IMG/VR virus record: IMGVR_UViG_3300031746_000007
Coordinates: 1 to 64,000 of that record
Origin: a virus
Length of the DNA stretch: 64,000 nt
Reading direction: 5' to 3' (one strand)
Position numbers and translations under genes: made by a program. Below, in pieces: positions 285 to 9,577 of the stretch. Each line of letters begins with the position of its first letter. Position 1 is the first letter of the stretch. The notes beneath the pieces are model-generated. The model saw only the letters and a list, made by a program, of their open reading frames with translations. It was not told the origin of the DNA and did no database searches.

Positions 285-944
285 CTAGAGCGTGATTCCG
301 GCGGCGACCAGGCGAGCGTCGACCTCGCTCGCCGGCCACAGGTTCCAGTCGGTCGGGAGAGTAGCGAGCGCGCTCGCCGCCAACACCTTGACCGGCAGGA
401 ACGCCCCCGGGCAAACCTTGTTCGCGTCCGCACTCGCACCGGCGAGGTCGGTGTGGCCGGCGGTGATGAGCCCACGCTGAATCGGGATGAGCAGCGCGAC
501 GAGCTTCACGAGCTTCGCGTACATGCCCGCCGGCGGGGTGTACTTTCGGAAGTCCCCGACTGCGGCGACGCCGATGCCTCGCCAGTTGAACCCGACCGCG
601 TGAGCGCCGCGCACCGAGAGCGGAAGCAGTTGCTCGAGCGTCCACAGCTCGGGGTCGGCGCGGAGCAGGAAGTGGTAGGGGATCGCGCCTCCGGTGCCGA
701 GCCCGACGTTGTTGAAGCGCAGCGCGAGCGCGGGCCCGTCGAGCAGCTCGTTAGGTACCGGGTTCGGGTTCGCGACCGGGTCGAGGTGGTCGAGGTCGGT
801 GCGGTGAATCACGAGGTGGGAGAGTGCCGGACGCGGGAGCACGTGCACGTTGCGCTTGTTGACCGTGCGGCATTCGGCGATGCGGTTCCACACGAACGGC
901 ACAGGCTTCGACGGCAGGTCGGCGGTCGTGTTCGTGATGACCAT
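285..944 (-). CDS. Endolysin: N-acetylmuramoyl-L-alanine amidase, PGRP/Amidase_2 type
   Basis: 219 aa. The protein has the layout of zinc amidases of the Amidase_2/PGRP family, which cut the bond between MurNAc and the stem peptide. A first histidine lies in HLVIHRTDLD, the core strand reads GIGVAAVGDF, and GHTDL followed by KVCPG supplies the second histidine and the cysteine ligand. No signal peptide is visible, so release through a holin is expected. The start chosen is the ATG at 944, which overlaps by one base the stop of the upstream MshEN-like gene, indicating translational coupling. It is the last gene of the late transcript. Confidence 0.85.
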   Translation of the reverse strand: MVITNTTADLPSKPVPFVWNRIAECRTVNKRNVHVLPRPALSHLVIHRTDLDHLDPVANPNPVPNELLDGPALALRFNNVGLGTGGAIPYHFLLRADPELWTLEQLLPLSVRGAHAVGFNWRGIGVAAVGDFRKYTPPAGMYAKLVKLVALLIPIQRGLITAGHTDLAGASADANKVCPGAFLPVKVLAASALATLPTDWNLWPASEVDARLVAAGITL

Positions 945-1306
945 CACTTCACCTTGAGCTTGGCTGCGATCGCATTCGAGATCCCGGCGATCTCGCCGAG
1001 GCTCGCCGACACCTCGCGCATGTGGTGTGCCTGGCGCGAGAGCTGGTGTTGCACCTCCTCCTGCCCGGTCGTCTCGCCCCTCGAGCGACGCTGTTCGTAG
1101 AGCGCCTCCTCGAGCTGGTCGCGGTCGATCGCCCCCATCTCGATCAGGATCTCGCCGAGCGGGGGCGCCGCCATGAGTTGCCTCTCGATCGCTGCCTTGA
1201 CCTGCTCGGGGGTCACGAACCCGCGGCGGATGAGAATGTTGCCGAGCGATGTCTGGTCTGCGGATGCCTCTTCGACTTCTTTGTGCTTCGACCCACGCCA
1301 CAGCAT
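944..1306 (-). CDS. MshEN-like (GspE N-terminal type) domain protein
   Basis: 120 aa. Residues 20-43 (LGNILIRRG...AAIERQ) and 49-72 (LGEILIEMG...EALYEQ) are two 24-residue copies of one motif, separated by exactly five residues (LMAAP). That is the architecture of the MshEN domain of type II secretion/MSHA ATPases, a known cyclic di-GMP binder. The arginine that usually opens each motif is Ser in copy 1 and Pro in copy 2, so ligand binding is uncertain. The C-terminal part (73-120) looks like an amphipathic helix. The ATG at 1306 is chosen because GGGAGG lies six bases upstream. The gene sits between the holin candidate and the amidase. Confidence 0.7.
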   Translation of the reverse strand: MLWRGSKHKEVEEASADQTSLGNILIRRGFVTPEQVKAAIERQLMAAPPLGEILIEMGAIDRDQLEEALYEQRRSRGETTGQEEVQHQLSRQAHHMREVSASLGEIAGISNAIAAKLKVK

Positions 1307-1319
1307 CGACGCCTCCCGG

Positions 1320-1556
1320 TCAGAGCTTCGATGACAGGCTATTGAGTGCATCCTTCAGGCCGCCGATCGCTTCCTTCATCGCGGTAATGGCTTGGACATT
1401 TTGAACGGAGACGTCAAGGATCTGTTTGTGCAGCTGCCCGATGTACTGGTCTTTTCGGTAGTAGGCGATCGCCAGTGCTCCGAGCAGAGCGTAGGGCCCG
1501 CCCGACATGAGAACGCTCACGAGCTTTTCGAATGCCGCTGCCAGGTCGGTCGCCAT
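1320..1556 (-). CDS. Putative holin, one membrane segment plus coiled coil
   Basis: 78 aa. A short amphipathic N-terminus is followed by one hydrophobic segment (GGPYALLGALAIAYYR) and then a long heptad-like helix (residues about 37-78). Small one-segment proteins next to an endolysin are often holins or holin-associated proteins. The start at 1556 has AGAGG upstream. The stop at 1320 lies just upstream of the ribosome site of the next gene. Confidence 0.65.
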   Translation of the reverse strand: MATDLAAAFEKLVSVLMSGGPYALLGALAIAYYRKDQYIGQLHKQILDVSVQNVQAITAMKEAIGGLKDALNSLSSKL

Positions 1557-1590: not shown

Positions 1591-1968
1591 TCAGATGTCG
1601 AGAGGCTTGTTCGGGTCGGGGGTCGACTGCGGCACGAGCACGCGCCCGAGCACCAGCCCGATCGCGAGTGGCCACGCCGGCGGCACGACGATCGGCACCA
1701 TGAGCCCGACGATGAGCGCGCCGAGCAGGAGCCCGGCGCCGATGAGCACGCGCAGCCAGCCCGGTCCCCACGTCCGGCCAGGCCAGAACAGGTGCGTCAT
1801 CAGGCCGCCCAAGAAGAGCGGGATGACCGGGTGATGGTAGGCGAGCGAGAGGAGCAGGTTGCTGATCGTGCCCCTCGAGCCGGCGAAGCTCACGGCGATG
1901 AAGTCCCACACGATGAGCCCGCCGGTCGCGCCCGCGACCACGATGCCGGTGCGTTGACGCCAGGTCAT
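1591..1968 (-). CDS. Multi-spanning small membrane protein, possible holin or antiholin
   Basis: 125 aa with several hydrophobic segments: about residues 8-28, 40-60 and a long one or pair from 75 to 115 rich in L, V, G and P. The short tail is polar (STPDPNKPLDI). No family is recognised. Its place between the last tail-fibre gene and the one-segment holin candidate makes a lysis role the best guess. The start overlaps by one base the stop of the YadA-like gene upstream. Confidence 0.6.
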   Translation of the reverse strand: MTWRQRTGIVVAGATGGLIVWDFIAVSFAGSRGTISNLLLSLAYHHPVIPLFLGGLMTHLFWPGRTWGPGWLRVLIGAGLLLGALIVGLMVPIVVPPAWPLAIGLVLGRVLVPQSTPDPNKPLDI

Positions 1969-2796: not shown

Positions 2797-4122
2797 TCAG
2801 AAGCGACTGATGCGCGAGCCCGTTGCGAGATTGAGCGCGTAGGTGCCCGAAGACGCGAGCGCTGCCCACGTCACGTCGGTCACACCATCGACCGTGACCT
2901 CACCAGCCGCGCCTGTGATCGTGGGAGTGAAACTGATCTTGATCGCGTTGGCGACCTCGTGCGCGTACAGCCCCCAGCCCGCGTTGCCCGTACCGACGAG
3001 CGAGCTTTCGATGTAGAGCTGCGACATGAACAAGGAGAAGCACCCGACTGTGCAGTTCTTGATCTCGGTGTCCCGCAGTCCGATGGTCGCCGCCTGGCAC
3101 CCGATGCCGGTAGAAGCGCCGTCGATGATCGTGTTGAAGAACTTCATCCCGGAAGGACACGCGAGAACCCGCAAACCCGTGCCCGTCCCGCGCGAGTACA
3201 CGCCGAAGATCGCGCCGCCTCCGGCACAGTTCTGAAAGTCGACACCGACCGACGCACACTGAGCCAACAGCCCGCGCGTCGAGAGGTCGGCTTGGTTGAA
3301 TATGTTGTAGAGCGCAATTCCGAACGACGGGCCGACCGCCCCCACGTCGCGCCAGGAAACCGAGAACGAGCTTTGCTCATAGAGCCCGACCGTGGCGGCA
3401 CCCCTGGCGAGCACACGAATCATAAAGACGCGCACGTTGTTGTTGCCGTAGTAGCGGTACGTCCCTGCCGCGATCTTCAGGTCACGGAGGAACATGTTGC
3501 CCAGGTTGCGGAGAAGATGCACGCCGTAGGGAATCCCGGGGAACAGAGCGAGCGCCTTCGGGCTCGCCGAGGTGATGACGGTCCCCGAATCCTCGATCGT
3601 GTAGACCGAGCCCGCGCCGAAAGATGTCGAGACATCGGCAACCGTGAGGGCTGTCGCCGTGTTGGCCGCGATCAGCTTGATCTGTCCTGCCCCCGGTCCC
3701 GACGCGATGTTGACGTAGCGTCCGACGAGGTCGTCGGGGGTCCAGGTCGCCCCCGCGTCGACAAGCGTGCGCGTCGTTCCGCCGGTAGCTGTCCCGGTCG
3801 GCGAGCCGGTCGCGAGGGTTGACGTGATTCGCGTGCCGGCGATCTGAAGCCCGGCCGAAGCCAGCATGCCCTCGACCATGAAGCCGGCGAAGTTACCGAC
3901 GCCGATGTTGATGAGAGCGTTCGCCGTCGTGGCGCCGCCGTATCGGATGACCGGCGCGAGCGCGTCAATCGCCGCTTGAATGGTCAGGAACGGAAACGCC
4001 GAGTAGTCGCCTCGGGTGATGCGCGCCGGCCGGTTGGCCGAGGGCGTGTCGCTACCGGTCGTACTGACGGCGAGCACGATGTTGCCTTGCGATTCCAGAC
4101 CACCGAAGCGAAGTTGTGCCAT
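2797..4122 (-). CDS. Beta-helix tail spike, paralogue 1 of pair A
   Basis: 441 aa. The N-terminus (GLESQGNIVLAVSTTG, then RPARITRGDYSA and TIQAAIDAL) is the typical entry to a right-handed parallel beta-helix. The middle is a series of short V/I/N/G-rich strands. The last about 40 residues (VTVDGVTDVTWAALAS ... ATGSRISRF) match the end of the neighbouring 459-residue protein closely, as does the N-terminus. The two are paralogues whose middle parts have diverged. The likely role is a receptor-binding spike or depolymerase, but no catalytic residues can be assigned by eye. Confidence 0.8.
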   Translation of the reverse strand: MAQLRFGGLESQGNIVLAVSTTGSDTPSANRPARITRGDYSAFPFLTIQAAIDALAPVIRYGGATTANALINIGVGNFAGFMVEGMLASAGLQIAGTRITSTLATGSPTGTATGGTTRTLVDAGATWTPDDLVGRYVNIASGPGAGQIKLIAANTATALTVADVSTSFGAGSVYTIEDSGTVITSASPKALALFPGIPYGVHLLRNLGNMFLRDLKIAAGTYRYYGNNNVRVFMIRVLARGAATVGLYEQSSFSVSWRDVGAVGPSFGIALYNIFNQADLSTRGLLAQCASVGVDFQNCAGGGAIFGVYSRGTGTGLRVLACPSGMKFFNTIIDGASTGIGCQAATIGLRDTEIKNCTVGCFSLFMSQLYIESSLVGTGNAGWGLYAHEVANAIKISFTPTITGAAGEVTVDGVTDVTWAALASSGTYALNLATGSRISRF

Positions 4123-4125
4123 GAC

Positions 4126-5505
4126 CTACCGCCTATTGATCCGCGACCCGGTCGCTTCGTCGATTGCGTAGTCGCCGACGTTTGCCAGTTCGGCCCACGT
4201 CACCGCGCCGACTCCGTCCACCGTCGCATCGCCGAGCGTGCCCGTGAGCGTAGGTGTGAAACCAGCGAGGCTCACGACATTCGAGCCGCCATCTAGGCGG
4301 AGGCCAAACCCTGCGTTACCAACACCCACAAGTGAACCGCCCATTGTTATCCGGCAATTGTCGAGAGTGAATGTCCTGACAGTCGTGTTGTTGATCGCTA
4401 ATTCGAAGCATTCTCCCGTCGATCCGTACCCGGCGACTCCGATCTGGCATCCGTCAAGTAGCAAGCCGTAGATCCCAACATCGGCGACGCCGTACACATA
4501 TAGGCCACTCACGCCACCGGTTGCCGAACAGTCAAGAACGTAAAACCAACCCACACCACGAAATCCGGAGAAGGGATAATCACAATTTACGACCCCACAA
4601 AAATAGGATTGAAATAAAGGGCAGACTTGAGCTTGAAAACCAACAGCGCAATCCATTGCGAAGCAGTACCCGTATGAAGCTGAAAGCGTCTGACCAGCAA
4701 TGAAGGCGTAACCTGAACCAGTACCTACCGCCACGCATCTTTCGTAAAATATTAGGCCGCTGTCCAACACACCGAACGCAGCGACCGCACCAGATATCAC
4801 CGCCTTTAGGTCTTTCAGATACACGGACGAAGTTTCTGCGATGCTAACGTAATCGAACCGGCCAGTCGGTTTTGTATTGACGATCGTTGCTACATCTTCG
4901 ATCGTGAACACCGATGTAGCGTCGAACGCGGGTGTGGGATACGAGGCGAACGTAATGGTGTCCGTCGTGTTGCTCATCACCGGCAAAATCTGACCCGCGC
5001 CGGAGCCCGCAGTCACACTGACGAATCGGCCACGAAGATCGTTGACCGTCCAACCTGCACCAGTCAGGGTCAGCGATCTCGCGCCGCCACTCGTCGCCGT
5101 TCCTGAGTTTGGTCCGGTGGCTGGTGTGGCAAGCTGTCGAGTACCAGCAATAGTCAAATCGTAATTCAAACCAAAGACCGCGAAACCAGGAAAGGTTCCA
5201 GCCCCCACGTTGATCGTGGCTGTGAGGTCTGGGGCAGCGTAAGTCAGCCCCGTGCGACTTAGCAGCGGCAGCGCGTCGATGGCGGCTTGAATTGTGGCGA
5301 ACGGCTTGGCCGAGTAGTCACCTTGAACGATGCGCGCCGGACGAGTCGGATCAACGTCGAGCCCGGTCGTCGCGACGGCGAGCGTGATGTTGCCCTGCGA
5401 CTCTAGCCCGAGGATCTGCGATGCGGGCAACCCTGGCAGCGGCAGCGCGGGAGGAAACGCGATGTTGCCGAGGAAGCTCTGAGTATCGCGCATCGAATGG
5501 GCCAT
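4126..5505 (-). CDS. Beta-helix tail spike, paralogue 2 of pair A
   Basis: 459 aa. It shares the GLESQGNI.LAV.TTG.D entry, the RPARI..GDYSA block and the VDGV..VTWAELA ... ATGSRINR end with the downstream gene, with a diverged central beta-helix. The stretch coding for the central part (about 4300-4770) is clearly richer in A and T than its surroundings, which suggests that the receptor-contact region was exchanged with another phage. It starts at 5505 with GAGG upstream. Confidence 0.8.
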   Translation of the reverse strand: MAHSMRDTQSFLGNIAFPPALPLPGLPASQILGLESQGNITLAVATTGLDVDPTRPARIVQGDYSAKPFATIQAAIDALPLLSRTGLTYAAPDLTATINVGAGTFPGFAVFGLNYDLTIAGTRQLATPATGPNSGTATSGGARSLTLTGAGWTVNDLRGRFVSVTAGSGAGQILPVMSNTTDTITFASYPTPAFDATSVFTIEDVATIVNTKPTGRFDYVSIAETSSVYLKDLKAVISGAVAAFGVLDSGLIFYERCVAVGTGSGYAFIAGQTLSASYGYCFAMDCAVGFQAQVCPLFQSYFCGVVNCDYPFSGFRGVGWFYVLDCSATGGVSGLYVYGVADVGIYGLLLDGCQIGVAGYGSTGECFELAINNTTVRTFTLDNCRITMGGSLVGVGNAGFGLRLDGGSNVVSLAGFTPTLTGTLGDATVDGVGAVTWAELANVGDYAIDEATGSRINRR

Positions 5506-5513
5506 TGGCTACC

Positions 5514-5804
5514 TCACATCCCTGGACGTGTGCCAGGACGGCCACCGCGATTCGGCAACGGAGGCTCCATACGCGGAGGTGGAGCCAGCCGCTCAGGCAA
5601 GCCGGTAGCGTTGCCGAGGTTGCACTCGACGAACGTGAACGCGGGATTGAACGTGCAGTTCGTGAACGCCGACTCGGCGAAGTTGCAGCTCTTCGCCGTG
5701 CCGTTGAACGTGCAGCCGGTGAAGTCGGTCTGCGCGTGCATCGCCCACACGAGATCGCCGTCGTTGTAGGTCACGTTTGAGACTGCGTTGCGCGGCATCG
5801 GCAT
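5514..5804 (-). CDS. Small protein with pentapeptide-like cysteine repeats
   Basis: 96 aa. Residues about 25-67 show a short run of five-residue steps with aromatic or hydrophobic centres and regular cysteines (TDFTGCTFNG, SCNFAESAFT, NCTFNPAFTF, ECNLGNATG), as in pentapeptide-repeat solenoids. The C-terminus is a Pro/Arg/Gly-rich tail. It lies between two spike genes and starts at 5804 with TAGGAGA upstream. It could be a small capping or joining piece of the beta-helix spikes, but the function is unknown. Confidence 0.7.
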   Translation of the reverse strand: MPMPRNAVSNVTYNDGDLVWAMHAQTDFTGCTFNGTAKSCNFAESAFTNCTFNPAFTFVECNLGNATGLPERLAPPPRMEPPLPNRGGRPGTRPGM

Positions 5805-5842
5805 GGTGTTCTCCTAGTAGAGTTGCGGTCGGATGTTCGTTC

Positions 5843-7141
5843 TCACGCCTTCGTGACGCCGAGTCCGTACCCATAATCGTAGTCGCCGCCATACGGCCCG
5901 ATCAAATCAGCGATCGACATCCACACGGTTCCAGCCGGACCCCGAATAGCAATCGCCTTGGTGGGGTCTATCGTGTCAGCCCACGTTCCTTGCAATCGAC
6001 ACCGACCGAAGCCGTTCAGGTCCACCCACTTGCCCGGGGTTTTTCCGTCTAGGGCTTTGCCTCCTGCCAACAACATCGCATCGGTGTAGTTCAGGAACCA
6101 AACCGTGCCCTCCCAACCTCCCCCCATCATGTTGATCATTTGGTACAGGCCGCCGCGATCGACGGCCCAGCTCCGATAGTGCAGGAAGAAGATGTCGTTG
6201 GAGTTGCGCGCGTTGACCGCGTTCCAGTTGAATGCCAGACATTGTCGGCCCTCGACAAGTCGCAGAGAATTGAGCAACGAAACACCGTCGAACTCCACGA
6301 CGCTGTCGTAAGCGTAGAACACACTGTAGCCGTTTTCGATGAAGCAGTTGTAGACGTAGGTGATCGCCCCGGGACTGCTCGCGTAGCCAGCCGCGCCTCC
6401 CGAGTTGGCACACCTGAAGTGACAGTTTCCGAATTGCAGCGTGCTCGGGTTGAGCTGATAGAAGAAGCTCCACGAGCCTCCGGGGTCTTTGTCGAACATC
6501 ACCGAGTCGACATAGAGCGACCCCGACAAGATCGAGATCGTGCCGCCGCCCAAGAACCGCACTGAGGGCTTGAGGATTTTCGCCACGGTCCCGACCGACC
6601 CCGGACCCCACGGGTTCGCGGAGGGAATCCCGATCGTCAGGTCGTGCGTGCCGTTGGCCAAGATCGGAGCCCGTGACGGGTAGTCGGGATAGCCGGGCCA
6701 CGGCACCTCGACCCAATAGCCCGCCCATTCATCGACCGTCCACGCCGGATTGCCGGCCGGCTGGTGAACGTGGCAATCGTCCCCCGAGTAGCTGTCGACC
6801 GTGAACGTCGCAGTCGGGGCGCCCCATGCCCCCACGAAATTGACGCTCCCGGCGAAGTCTGCCTCGAGACCAGTCGAAGGTATCGTGTAGTCGCCGGCAG
6901 CAAACTGAACGGTCACGTATCCGTTGGCACCGACGAGCGAGATCGGCAAGCGCTTGAGCACCTCCGCCAGCGTCTTCAGCGGTGTGGTCGTGCCGGGGTT
7001 CCAGGGGCTGTCGTCGCCGAGCGCCGCGTCGACGAGGATCGTTGCCGCCGGCCAGACCGCGCCTTCAGTCTGCGTCGTTGCCGTGAACGGACCGATCTTG
7101 ACCGCGCGTCCGAACGTCTGCTCGAGGTGGTGATATGCCAT
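5843..7141 (-). CDS. Beta-helix tail spike, paralogue 1 of pair B
   Basis: 432 aa. Near the N-terminus is LGDDSPWNPGTTTPLKTL, followed by VDSYSGDD.HVHQPAGNPAW. Both blocks recur in the next gene upstream (554 aa). The C-terminus ends in SIADLIGPYGGDYDYGYG, also matched there. The middle reads as many short strands, as in a beta-helix. The spike or receptor-binding role is inferred from fold pattern and position. Confidence 0.8.
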   Translation of the reverse strand: MAYHHLEQTFGRAVKIGPFTATTQTEGAVWPAATILVDAALGDDSPWNPGTTTPLKTLAEVLKRLPISLVGANGYVTVQFAAGDYTIPSTGLEADFAGSVNFVGAWGAPTATFTVDSYSGDDCHVHQPAGNPAWTVDEWAGYWVEVPWPGYPDYPSRAPILANGTHDLTIGIPSANPWGPGSVGTVAKILKPSVRFLGGGTISILSGSLYVDSVMFDKDPGGSWSFFYQLNPSTLQFGNCHFRCANSGGAAGYASSPGAITYVYNCFIENGYSVFYAYDSVVEFDGVSLLNSLRLVEGRQCLAFNWNAVNARNSNDIFFLHYRSWAVDRGGLYQMINMMGGGWEGTVWFLNYTDAMLLAGGKALDGKTPGKWVDLNGFGRCRLQGTWADTIDPTKAIAIRGPAGTVWMSIADLIGPYGGDYDYGYGLGVTKA

Positions 7142-7148
7142 CGTTGCC

Positions 7149-8807
7149 TCACACCGACGCGATCCACGCGCCGAACCCGTAGTCGAACTCGCGACCGTAG
7201 AGCGCCGCCAGGTCAGCCGCCGAGAACTGCACGGCGGGGTAGCCGTACCACACCCACGGGTTCATTTGAATCGTCGCGACCGAAGCCTCTTGCGTCCAGC
7301 TCTCGAGGAACACGCGACAGCCCGGGTTGATGCCGAACCAGTATTTCGGCGCGTGCCCCGGGATCTGTGTCGGGTAGCCGCCGTATGCGTGAATGGTCGC
7401 CGACTGTTGCCCGGCGTGAAAGAACATGTAATCGGTGTTGATGCAGTAGATCGCGTCGCCGTAGATGTACCAGACCTCGCCGCCGCGGTCGCTCCAATAG
7501 AGGTAGCTCACGTTGCGAAGCACGAGACTCTGACGGATGTCGGTCGTGGTGTGAAACCGCGTCTCGATGACGAACCCGCAGTTCGCAGCGGTGATGGTCT
7601 GAAAAAATAGCGACCCGCCGTAGGGGACGATCGCCGACTGAAGATTCAGGAACATGCAGTTGTCGAAGCGAACGGTTGCGCCGGGCTCCTCGACGTACAT
7701 CATCTTGGCGGCGCCGTCGCCTTTGAAGAGGCAGTTGGTGAAGGATGTCGCGCTCGCGTACACGTCGAACATGTACGGCAGCGCGTTCACCGACGTGTCG
7801 AAGATGACTCGCACGAACCCCGACGCAAAGCGCGCGCCGTTCGTCCCTTGAAGGAGGAAGGTGGCCGGACCGACGATGCGCGACGTCATCTCGGCGATCG
7901 TCACTGACGTGCCGATCGGGATGTACGTCGGAGCGCCCGTTCCCCAGTTCACAGTCAAACTGTGCGTGGTGTTGGCGATGATGAAATACTCGTACGTGTA
8001 TACGCCCCACGGTGGACCGTAGTCGATCGACACCCGAAGCACACGACCGACGTGCTCATCGACCACCCATGCCGGATTGCCCGGAGCCTGGTGCACGACC
8101 ATGTCGCCGTCCGAGTAGCTGTCGATCGCGAACGTGTGGAGGTCGGAGGCTTCGCCGTAGAAAAACACGTTCGACAGGTCAATCGGTAGCCATTCGCCCG
8201 CGGCTCCGAAAGAGTGTGCTCCACCCTTCAAAAGCACACGCACGACCGGAGCGGTCGCCACATCGGCCACACCCGCGGTAGCTTGGTGATCTGCCACCGG
8301 CAGTCGCGCGAACAGCGCGTCGAGTGTCTTGAGCGGCGTCGTCTTGCCGTCGTTCCACTCGGAGTCGTCGCCGAGCACCGGGTCGACCGTGATCTGATAC
8401 GGCCCCGTCTCGCGCCGCACGACGTGCGGGTTCGGGATGCGCTGCCAGGTCGACGCGCGTCGGAACCAGAAGTTGCCTTTGTCAGCCGCGTAGGCGAGCG
8501 TGCCGGCCGGATCGGCGGTCGCGAGCAGCACCGACTCGTCCGCGTAGATCTTCGTCCCGCCGCCACCCCCGCCACCGAACGCGACCTCGGTCCAGTTGGC
8601 GTTCAGCAACCCGCCGACGAGCGTCCAGACCTTGCCGTCGCTCCGCGTGTAGACCCACATGCCGAGCTTGCGCCGCTCGGACGGGACGGCATCGCGCTCG
8701 GTGTGGTCGGCGACCGTGCGGAAGCCGCCCAAGAACTCGGCGTCTTCGACGATCGGGAAGGGTTGCGCGTTCTTCGGTTTGATGATGTCGATGACAGTGA
8801 CGGGCAT
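7149..8807 (-). CDS. Beta-helix tail spike, paralogue 2 of pair B, with N-terminal extension
   Basis: 552 aa from the ATG at 8807. This is preferred to an in-frame GTG six bases upstream because AGGTGG is then seven bases away. The first about 130 residues are a separate domain (FLGGFRTVADHTERDAVPSERR, a WTLVGG strand, then a Gly-rich linker), probably for attachment to the tail. The remainder parallels the downstream 432-residue protein: LGDDSEWNDGKTTPLKTL, SYSDGDMVVHQAPGNPAW and the ending LAALYGREFDYGFGAW. One copy with and one without the attachment domain suggests a branched or nested spike assembly. Confidence 0.8.
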   Translation of the reverse strand: MPVTVIDIIKPKNAQPFPIVEDAEFLGGFRTVADHTERDAVPSERRKLGMWVYTRSDGKVWTLVGGLLNANWTEVAFGGGGGGGTKIYADESVLLATADPAGTLAYAADKGNFWFRRASTWQRIPNPHVVRRETGPYQITVDPVLGDDSEWNDGKTTPLKTLDALFARLPVADHQATAGVADVATAPVVRVLLKGGAHSFGAAGEWLPIDLSNVFFYGEASDLHTFAIDSYSDGDMVVHQAPGNPAWVVDEHVGRVLRVSIDYGPPWGVYTYEYFIIANTTHSLTVNWGTGAPTYIPIGTSVTIAEMTSRIVGPATFLLQGTNGARFASGFVRVIFDTSVNALPYMFDVYASATSFTNCLFKGDGAAKMMYVEEPGATVRFDNCMFLNLQSAIVPYGGSLFFQTITAANCGFVIETRFHTTTDIRQSLVLRNVSYLYWSDRGGEVWYIYGDAIYCINTDYMFFHAGQQSATIHAYGGYPTQIPGHAPKYWFGINPGCRVFLESWTQEASVATIQMNPWVWYGYPAVQFSAADLAALYGREFDYGFGAWIASV

Positions 8808-8809
8808 GG

Positions 8810-9577
8810 TCACACCACCTGAACGGTCGTCGTGCCGAGGTTCGCGTTCGCGCTTCGCCAGAGGTCATAGTTCTGCGTGACGCCGTGCGCGTTCGTCACC
8901 GCGACCGTGCCGATGAAGTTGAAGCCGCCTTCGAACGTGCCGACGAAGAACGTCGGGGTGCCGTAGCTCGTCGGCGCCGCGTAGTAGATGTACTGTCCGG
9001 AGCCGGGCGACACGGTGAACGTGATGTTGCGACTTGCCGAGAGCGTCTGTCCGGCGAGCGCTTTGATGAACGTCTCGTCCGACCCGCCGGCGACGCCGAC
9101 CCCGTAGTAGAGCCGGGGTCGCCAGGTCGTCGACACCGATCGCGTGCCGTTCTCGAGACCGAGCGCGGCCGACAGCGTCCAGGTCACGCCCGAGTTGTTG
9201 CCCGTGCGCGTGTAGCCATGCAGGTACGTGAACGCGGTCGGGGTCAAGCTCACGTCGAGCACCGGGTTGCCGGCGTTGTCGACGACCGATGCCGACGACG
9301 GGGCTTGCGAGTAGGTCGCCGTGAACGCCGGGTTCGTGAGGGTCTGCCCGACCTCGAGCACGCCGGCCGGGCCGCCGAAGCTGTTGATGCCAAACCCGGG
9401 GAGGATGTAGCTCTGCCGGATCGGGCGGAACGCCGGCACGCCGCCGACCTCGATCAGCGCATAGCCGTCGTTACCGGTGACCGGGGGGAGACCGCTGCCG
9501 CCGCCGGCGTTGCCGAGCTTGCAGAGCGTGACCAGCTCGAGCTTGCTCGAGGTCGGCTTGAGGATGATGCGGCTCAT
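8810..9577 (-). CDS. Tail fibre or baseplate-proximal fibre protein
   Basis: 255 aa. A Gly-rich linker near residue 25 is followed by beta-rich sequence with Thr/Ser/Gly repeats typical of fibre shafts and knobs. There are no membrane segments or known motifs. The start at 9577 overlaps the upstream stop by ATGA, so it is translated together with the two preceding fibre genes. Confidence 0.7.
   Translation of the reverse strand: MSRIILKPTSSKLELVTLCKLGNAGGGSGLPPVTGNDGYALIEVGGVPAFRPIRQSYILPGFGINSFGGPAGVLEVGQTLTNPAFTATYSQAPSSASVVDNAGNPVLDVSLTPTAFTYLHGYTRTGNNSGVTWTLSAALGLENGTRSVSTTWRPRLYYGVGVAGGSDETFIKALAGQTLSASRNITFTVSPGSGQYIYYAAPTSYGTPTFFVGTFEGGFNFIGTVAVTNAHGVTQNYDLWRSANANLGTTTVQVV

Follow-up and report, generated by a model that had tools for sequence, protein, structure and literature searches.

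A small gene next to the amidase gene of a contractile-tailed phage encodes a predicted stand-alone MshEN-like domain, a module known from the N terminus of secretion ATPases such as MshE. The gene lies on the minus strand at positions 944 to 1306 of a 64,000-nucleotide stretch of viral DNA, hereafter the window (positions 1 to 64,000 of IMG/VR record IMGVR_UViG_3300031746_000007), in a run of four genes that plausibly forms a lysis operon. The predicted fold of its product is supported by a sequence profile and by an independent search of solved structures, and we propose for it, tentatively, an accessory role in lysis.

Identification of the MshEN-like domain

The product contains two 24-residue motifs followed by a long helix, encoded at the following positions:

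944 to 1306, minus strand: gene of the MshEN-like protein, 120 amino acids (aa), MLWRGSKHK...KLKVK; the open reading frame (ORF) was confirmed at this place
1178 to 1249, minus strand: motif I, SLGNILIRRGFVTPEQVKAAIERQ, aa 20-43, with Ser rather than Arg at position 1
1091 to 1162, minus strand: motif II, PLGEILIEMGAIDRDQLEEALYEQ, aa 49-72, with Pro rather than Arg at position 1
950 to 1066, minus strand: single long C-terminal helix predicted by AlphaFold2, aa 81-119 (about 39 residues), with weak heptad periodicity (z 2.2, p 0.026)

The motifs are separated by exactly five residues, LMAAP (aa 44-48). The pair occurs only once in the six reading frames of the window, and neither shuffling the protein 100,000 times nor shuffling the six frames 100 times ever reproduced it. 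The NCBIfam profile NF053729 ('c-di-GMP_motif, MshE-related') matched the protein from profile position 2 to 53 of 53 with an E-value of 1.1e-27 and 95.6 bits, the curated cut-off being 38 bits. When the PDB sequences were searched with phmmer, the best match was PilF of Thermus (1.1e-14), followed by PilB and MshE. A profile built exclusively from 17 bacterial domains gave the window protein 69.7 bits and left its shuffled copies undetected; these domains had been gathered with a window peptide, so that motif II is favored in this score. The protein was unmatched by the Pfam family PF05157 ('MshEN'), both in a search of its own genome and by hmmscan at E<=1. Two other Pfam matches were rejected. 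DUF4388 (PF14332) reached 25.8 bits against a cut-off of 25, but over profile positions 48-76 of 122 only, a short shared motif; matches to the C-terminus of fumarase C were likewise short shared motifs or fell below the cut-off. By the curated profile, then, the 120-aa protein belongs to the MshE-related motif domain. With no ATPase domain in its ORF, it is not a secretion ATPase and falls outside the ATPases of type II secretion systems and type IV pili (GspE/PilB).

AlphaFold2 predicted four short helices and then the long helix, with a mean predicted local distance difference test score (pLDDT) of 89.5. The model superimposed on MshE in complex with cyclic di-GMP (c-di-GMP; 5htl_B) with a root mean square deviation of 0.7 A over 53 columns (probability 1.00), and on the GSPII-B domain of PilF with 0.7 A; the shortness of the module made the Foldseek E-values weak (0.04). 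A control model made from two phage sequences alone reproduced both the helices and the top match (pLDDT 82.5), so the fold was not imposed by the ATPase relatives in the alignment. The four-helix MshEN_N fold, a predicted rather than a solved structure, is supported by the profile, the search of solved structures and the structure prediction. The preliminary description of this DNA, made from the sequence alone, had claimed the paired motifs with their five-residue spacing and an MshEN-like fold in a domain standing alone with a short helix, and had proposed comparing a predicted structure with the N-domain of MshE. All of this was borne out except that the helix is not short.

Residues of a possible c-di-GMP-binding site

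Of the 11 positions of the extended consensus, (R/K/L)LG..., 8 are conserved in motif I and 9 in motif II. Leu2, Gly3 and Gln24 are present in both motifs; the full set Leu2/Gly3/Leu17/Leu21/Gln24 is complete in motif II, and motif I carries the conservative replacements V17 and I21. Neither motif opens with Arg, Lys or Leu. The preliminary description had noted the missing arginines and supposed that ligand binding might have been lost, a reasonable suggestion, but the absence of Arg is not in itself decisive because PilF domains with Lys, Leu or Pro at position 1 still bind c-di-GMP. The consensus at this position has been widened to R/K/L, and PilF GSPII-B K167L binds c-di-GMP at 2 nM (PMC11731258). 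Motif II of PilF GSPII-C opens with Pro (P335), yet this domain binds with a dissociation constant (KD) of 0.3-0.5 uM, the second KD of full-length PilF. Ser is another matter: at position 1 of motif II in the rebuilt PilF GSPII-A module (PilF9-65 series) it caused complete loss of binding, and in the same study I/I, to be compared with V17 and I21 of motif I here, cost 2.4-fold in PilF (PMC12002112). Since the isolated MshEN_N module of MshE (aa 1-62) binds c-di-GMP at 0.35 uM, a free-standing module could bind (PMC5013675). Modules of the MshEN_N type can be expressed in isolation, and bind, as pieces of 60 residues. On balance we lean toward weak or no binding of c-di-GMP by the phage protein, judging from its sequence, because motif I has Ser and the closest phage relative, described below, keeps both changes. 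No GGDEF or EAL genes were found in the four related phage records.

Gene organization and neighboring genes

The ATG at 1306 is preceded by ACCGGGAGGCGTCG, which includes a good ribosome-binding site:

1312 to 1317, minus strand: GGGAGG, a Shine-Dalgarno-like sequence of the MshEN-like gene, a few bases 5' of the ATG

The frame has no stop before 1351, but translation is likely to start at 1306; the alternative start at 1351 was rejected for want of a Shine-Dalgarno sequence as good as the one at 1306. At the other end of the gene, base 944 is common to the TGA stop and the ATG of the amidase gene (TGATG), and because stop and start share one base the two genes are likely to be coupled in translation, as previously proposed.

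The record as a whole is an 84.7-kb virus fragment with genes for baseplate J, sheath, tape measure, portal and major head proteins. Following a group of tail-fiber-like genes, the order is 125-aa protein, 78-aa protein, MshEN-like protein and Amidase_2 endolysin, the three neighbors being:

1591 to 1968, minus strand: 125-aa protein, holin candidate, hydrophobic in several segments and strongly so at aa 7-29 and 68-112
1320 to 1556, minus strand: 78-aa protein with one membrane segment at about aa 12-31, a coiled-coil-like tail at aa 36-78 (heptad z 3.4) and the Shine-Dalgarno sequence GAGAGG
285 to 944, minus strand: endolysin, an N-acetylmuramoyl-L-alanine amidase (Amidase_2) of 219 aa; PF01510, 2e-10, 41.5 bits, cut-off 26

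The amidase also matches PHROG lysis families and PDB amidases, including T7 lysozyme, and with its above-threshold Amidase_2 domain it provides the endolysin of a phage lysis cassette. By the positive-inside rule, the tail of the 78-aa protein should be cytoplasmic. This protein is a candidate partner of the MshEN-like protein and a candidate holin or holin accessory. Neither it nor the 125-aa protein matched a holin family in Pfam, PHROG and NCBIfam searches, and their membrane character is read from hydropathy; in tblastn, the 125-aa protein weakly matched a 70-aa membrane protein from a 595-kb phage. The earlier proposal of a holin candidate upstream is thus plausible, there being two membrane proteins in place, but lacks a family match. 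Interpretation of the four-gene run as a lysis operon is plausible. When each of these three neighbors was used as query, no relatives were found in IMG/VR.

Just upstream of the lysis-type operon, at 1968-2525 on the minus strand, is a gene for an adhesin-like protein of 185 aa in which the YadA head repeat occurs three times (PF05658, 4.5e-11). Tail-fiber-like proteins are clustered at 2797-8813, also on the minus strand (2797-4122, 4126-5505, 5843-7141 and 7149-8813). The first two open alike (...PARI..GDYSA.PF.TIQAAIDAL), which suggests serial duplication of a receptor-type protein.

Related proteins in phages and bacteria

Viral relatives are rare. Three IMG/VR contigs were found by peptide search and one more by DNA pattern, a count that is a lower bound since the virus searches demand exact short matches. 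With the A3 profile, the matches to the window, L003 and L004 arise by construction, and only that to L052 (1.7e-9) is independent. The remaining pattern-scan matches in readable frames, besides L003 and L052, were nucleases, integrases, tape measure, DnaB and similar proteins and were set aside.

The closest phage relative (42% over 85 residues) is encoded by L003, a 202-kb phage that looks unrelated. Conservation with the window protein runs past the domain into an RGE..EE linker, and the same two motif-opening positions are occupied by Ser and Pro; the pocket has further changes, I2 and M21. The heptad periodicity of the C-terminal helix is not significant in L003 (z 0.9). The L003 gene lies directly behind a small membrane/coiled-coil gene (L003:9669-9998, heptad z 3.3), in the layout seen with the 78-aa gene. 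The pair of MshEN-like and membrane-coil genes seems to recur outside shared synteny, because the window terminase and baseplate-J protein were unmatched in L003, both searches being without positive control. A spanin assignment for the membrane/coil proteins was considered and rejected: the PHROG match for L003 was weak (0.0034), and charge placement predicts a cytoplasmic coil. Elsewhere in L003 (8378-9183), a small membrane protein overlaps a 164-aa protein with SHC...TEAT...DICSELL. By eye the latter looks like a papain-fold hydrolase in permuted form and might be a second lysis enzyme of this phage; no profile match was found for it.

In L004/L005, a single 191-aa protein combines the MshEN module with a weakly hydrophobic segment and a coiled coil. 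The protein of L052:624-1301 has a membrane segment and a coiled coil and ends in one MshEN motif. A lambda-type major head protein (3e-33) marks L052 as a true phage fragment, and the MshEN gene has prohead protease-like and major head genes nearby; dimerization through the coil could unite two half-sites. Together, the fusions and the L003 neighbor point to a membrane-partnered accessory protein.

Among about 1,370 bacterial genomes from four phyla, the matches were mostly frames as long as pilus or secretion ATPases, or soluble multi-motif proteins; none was recognized as a prophage copy. A 125-aa protein of Zixibacteria (L008:5809-6186) has N-terminal hydrophobic segments and then a bare MshEN pair, as a membrane-anchored form without ATPase. 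The L046 (MT836856.1), L085 and L087 proteins, all soluble and bacterial, carry several MshEN-like motifs in series with non-Arg openings, and in two cases response-regulator genes adjoin them. Outside secretion ATPases, the motif seems to serve as a repeat unit. It should be noted that two tblastn matches in INPHARED, MT836856.1 (L046) and MT835655.1 (L047), are labeled 'Bacteriophage sp.' but look like bacterial fragments rather than phage relatives, their gene content including citrate synthase and threonine synthase, and a type II secretion ATPase with prepilin peptidase.

Possible roles of the MshEN-like protein

The role that we consider best, though with slightly less than even confidence, is that of a soluble accessory lysis protein whose C-terminal helix is docked on the 78-aa membrane protein, where it acts as a scaffold or brake that sets amidase release. 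Built on the four-helix MshEN module, the protein would be soluble and cytoplasmic; its C-terminal helix would pair with the coiled coil that the neighboring 78-aa membrane protein exposes to the cytoplasm, and the module would thereby be held against the cytoplasmic side of the membrane. In this position the docked module may act on the assembly of the holin-type membrane proteins, and a brake on assembly would set the timing of amidase release. With the pocket partly kept and its stacking Arg replaced by Ser and Pro, the module would be mainly a protein-protein piece. A precedent is the ND0 subdomain of Xanthomonas citri PilB, which is of MshEN_N type, lacks c-di-GMP motifs and is present in a PilB-PilZ complex (PMC8389850). 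Several observations weigh against this proposal. The 78-aa protein and the L003 membrane/coil protein have no detectable sequence similarity, and the argument from a recurring partner therefore rests on layout and position, not homology. Amidase_2 is absent from the L003 record, where the pair stands amid tail-fiber-like genes, so that a lysis setting is clear for the window only; the search for the gene in other lysis cassettes, proposed in the preliminary description, thus yielded relatives but no second clear cassette. In L004, the membrane segment falls under the hydropathy threshold used, and the coil may be on the other side of the membrane.

An unlikely alternative is that lysis is gated by a signal: c-di-GMP or another cyclic dinucleotide in the MshEN pocket would alter the hold on the membrane partner, and its level in the host would time lysis. 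The NF053729 score far above the cut-off, the retention of both Gln24 and both Gly3 residues, the tolerance of Lys and Leu at position 1 (PMC11731258), the binding by GSPII-C with P335 and the sufficiency of the 62-residue MshE module (PMC5013675) all favor it. Against these stand the Ser in motif I, a residue that abolished binding in the PilF9-65 series (PMC12002112), and the L003 relative, which keeps Ser and Pro in addition to I2 and M21 and so makes the non-Arg opening the family state; neither GGDEF nor EAL genes occur in the related phage records, although the ligand could come from the host. We give the same low probability to an operon-wide form, in which the module would bind c-di-GMP, or a different cyclic dinucleotide through the altered Ser/Pro pocket, and the C-terminal helix would relay the signal to the membrane/coil partner, a layout present in several phages as neighbors or fusions. 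Control of lysis by a second messenger, suggested in the preliminary description, is a minority reading that rests on fold and position. It is also rather unlikely that the protein is structural or incidental (a virion or tail-fiber assembly factor, or passenger cargo, that adjoins the amidase by chance). The L003 surroundings just mentioned and the great rarity of such proteins in phages agree with this; the one-base coupling to the amidase, the two membrane proteins just upstream and the recurrence of a membrane/coil partner do not.

Two further functions appear improbable. As a decoy of host type IV pilus or type II secretion ATPases, the free module would mimic the N terminus of PilB or MshE and block pilus extension or secretion, for example to exclude other phages. 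The best matches among solved structures are indeed PilF, PilB and MshE, and other phages are reported to inhibit pilus assembly at PilB (PMC8143254, PMC8764522). A decoy, however, fits poorly with a gene coupled to an amidase in a late lysis-type operon and leaves the C-terminal helix and the membrane-coil neighbor unexplained; moreover, X. citri PilB binds PilZ mainly via hydrophobic residues from position 72 on (ND1), which are absent here (PMC8389850). Least probable, by analogy with known sponges, is that the protein might sequester cyclic dinucleotides against signal-based host defense, such as a cyclic-oligonucleotide-based antiphage signaling system (CBASS) that uses c-di-GMP. Phage sponge proteins against CBASS do exist (PMC11722364), but a late operon is the wrong position for an early anti-defense gene, motif I has Ser, PADLOC gave no match, and the C-terminal helix would again be unexplained.

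In the literature searched, there was no description of an MshEN module linked to phage lysis, nor of a stand-alone or membrane-fused MshEN in phages. If the protein is a membrane-docked lysis regulator, holin-endolysin systems would gain a new kind of soluble part; should the protein still sense a cyclic dinucleotide, the phage would time bursting by the signal with which its host switches between sessile and motile states.

Comparison with known systems

The bacterial proteins in which MshEN modules are known include secretion and pilus ATPases and glycosyltransferases. The phage protein resembles the MshEN_N of Vibrio cholerae MshE (PDB 5htl) in its two 24-residue motifs, five-residue spacer, four-helix fold and Leu2/Gly3/Gln24 residues; unlike MshE, it has neither the ATPase, the MshEN_C half nor the opening Arg, and it has an extra 39-aa C-terminal helix. 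The best sequence match among solved structures, GSPII-C of Thermus thermophilus PilF, shares with it a motif II that opens with Pro, whereas motif I of GSPII-C keeps Arg and the domain belongs to a pilus ATPase and binds c-di-GMP. GSPII-A of the same protein has Ser at an opening position and retains the fold, as the phage protein does; this non-binder, however, lacks the Gln residues (H33, R62) that the phage protein keeps. DUF4388 (PF14332) has one motif-like stretch in common with the phage protein. In gene content, operons of holin, accessory and amidase genes such as xhlA-xhlB-xlyA of PBSX are a close parallel. Although the PBSX operon is without a soluble MshEN protein, and its gene order and the topology of its coil protein differ from those in the window, it brings together a coiled-coil membrane protein, a multi-span membrane protein and an amidase in one operon, as is the case here.
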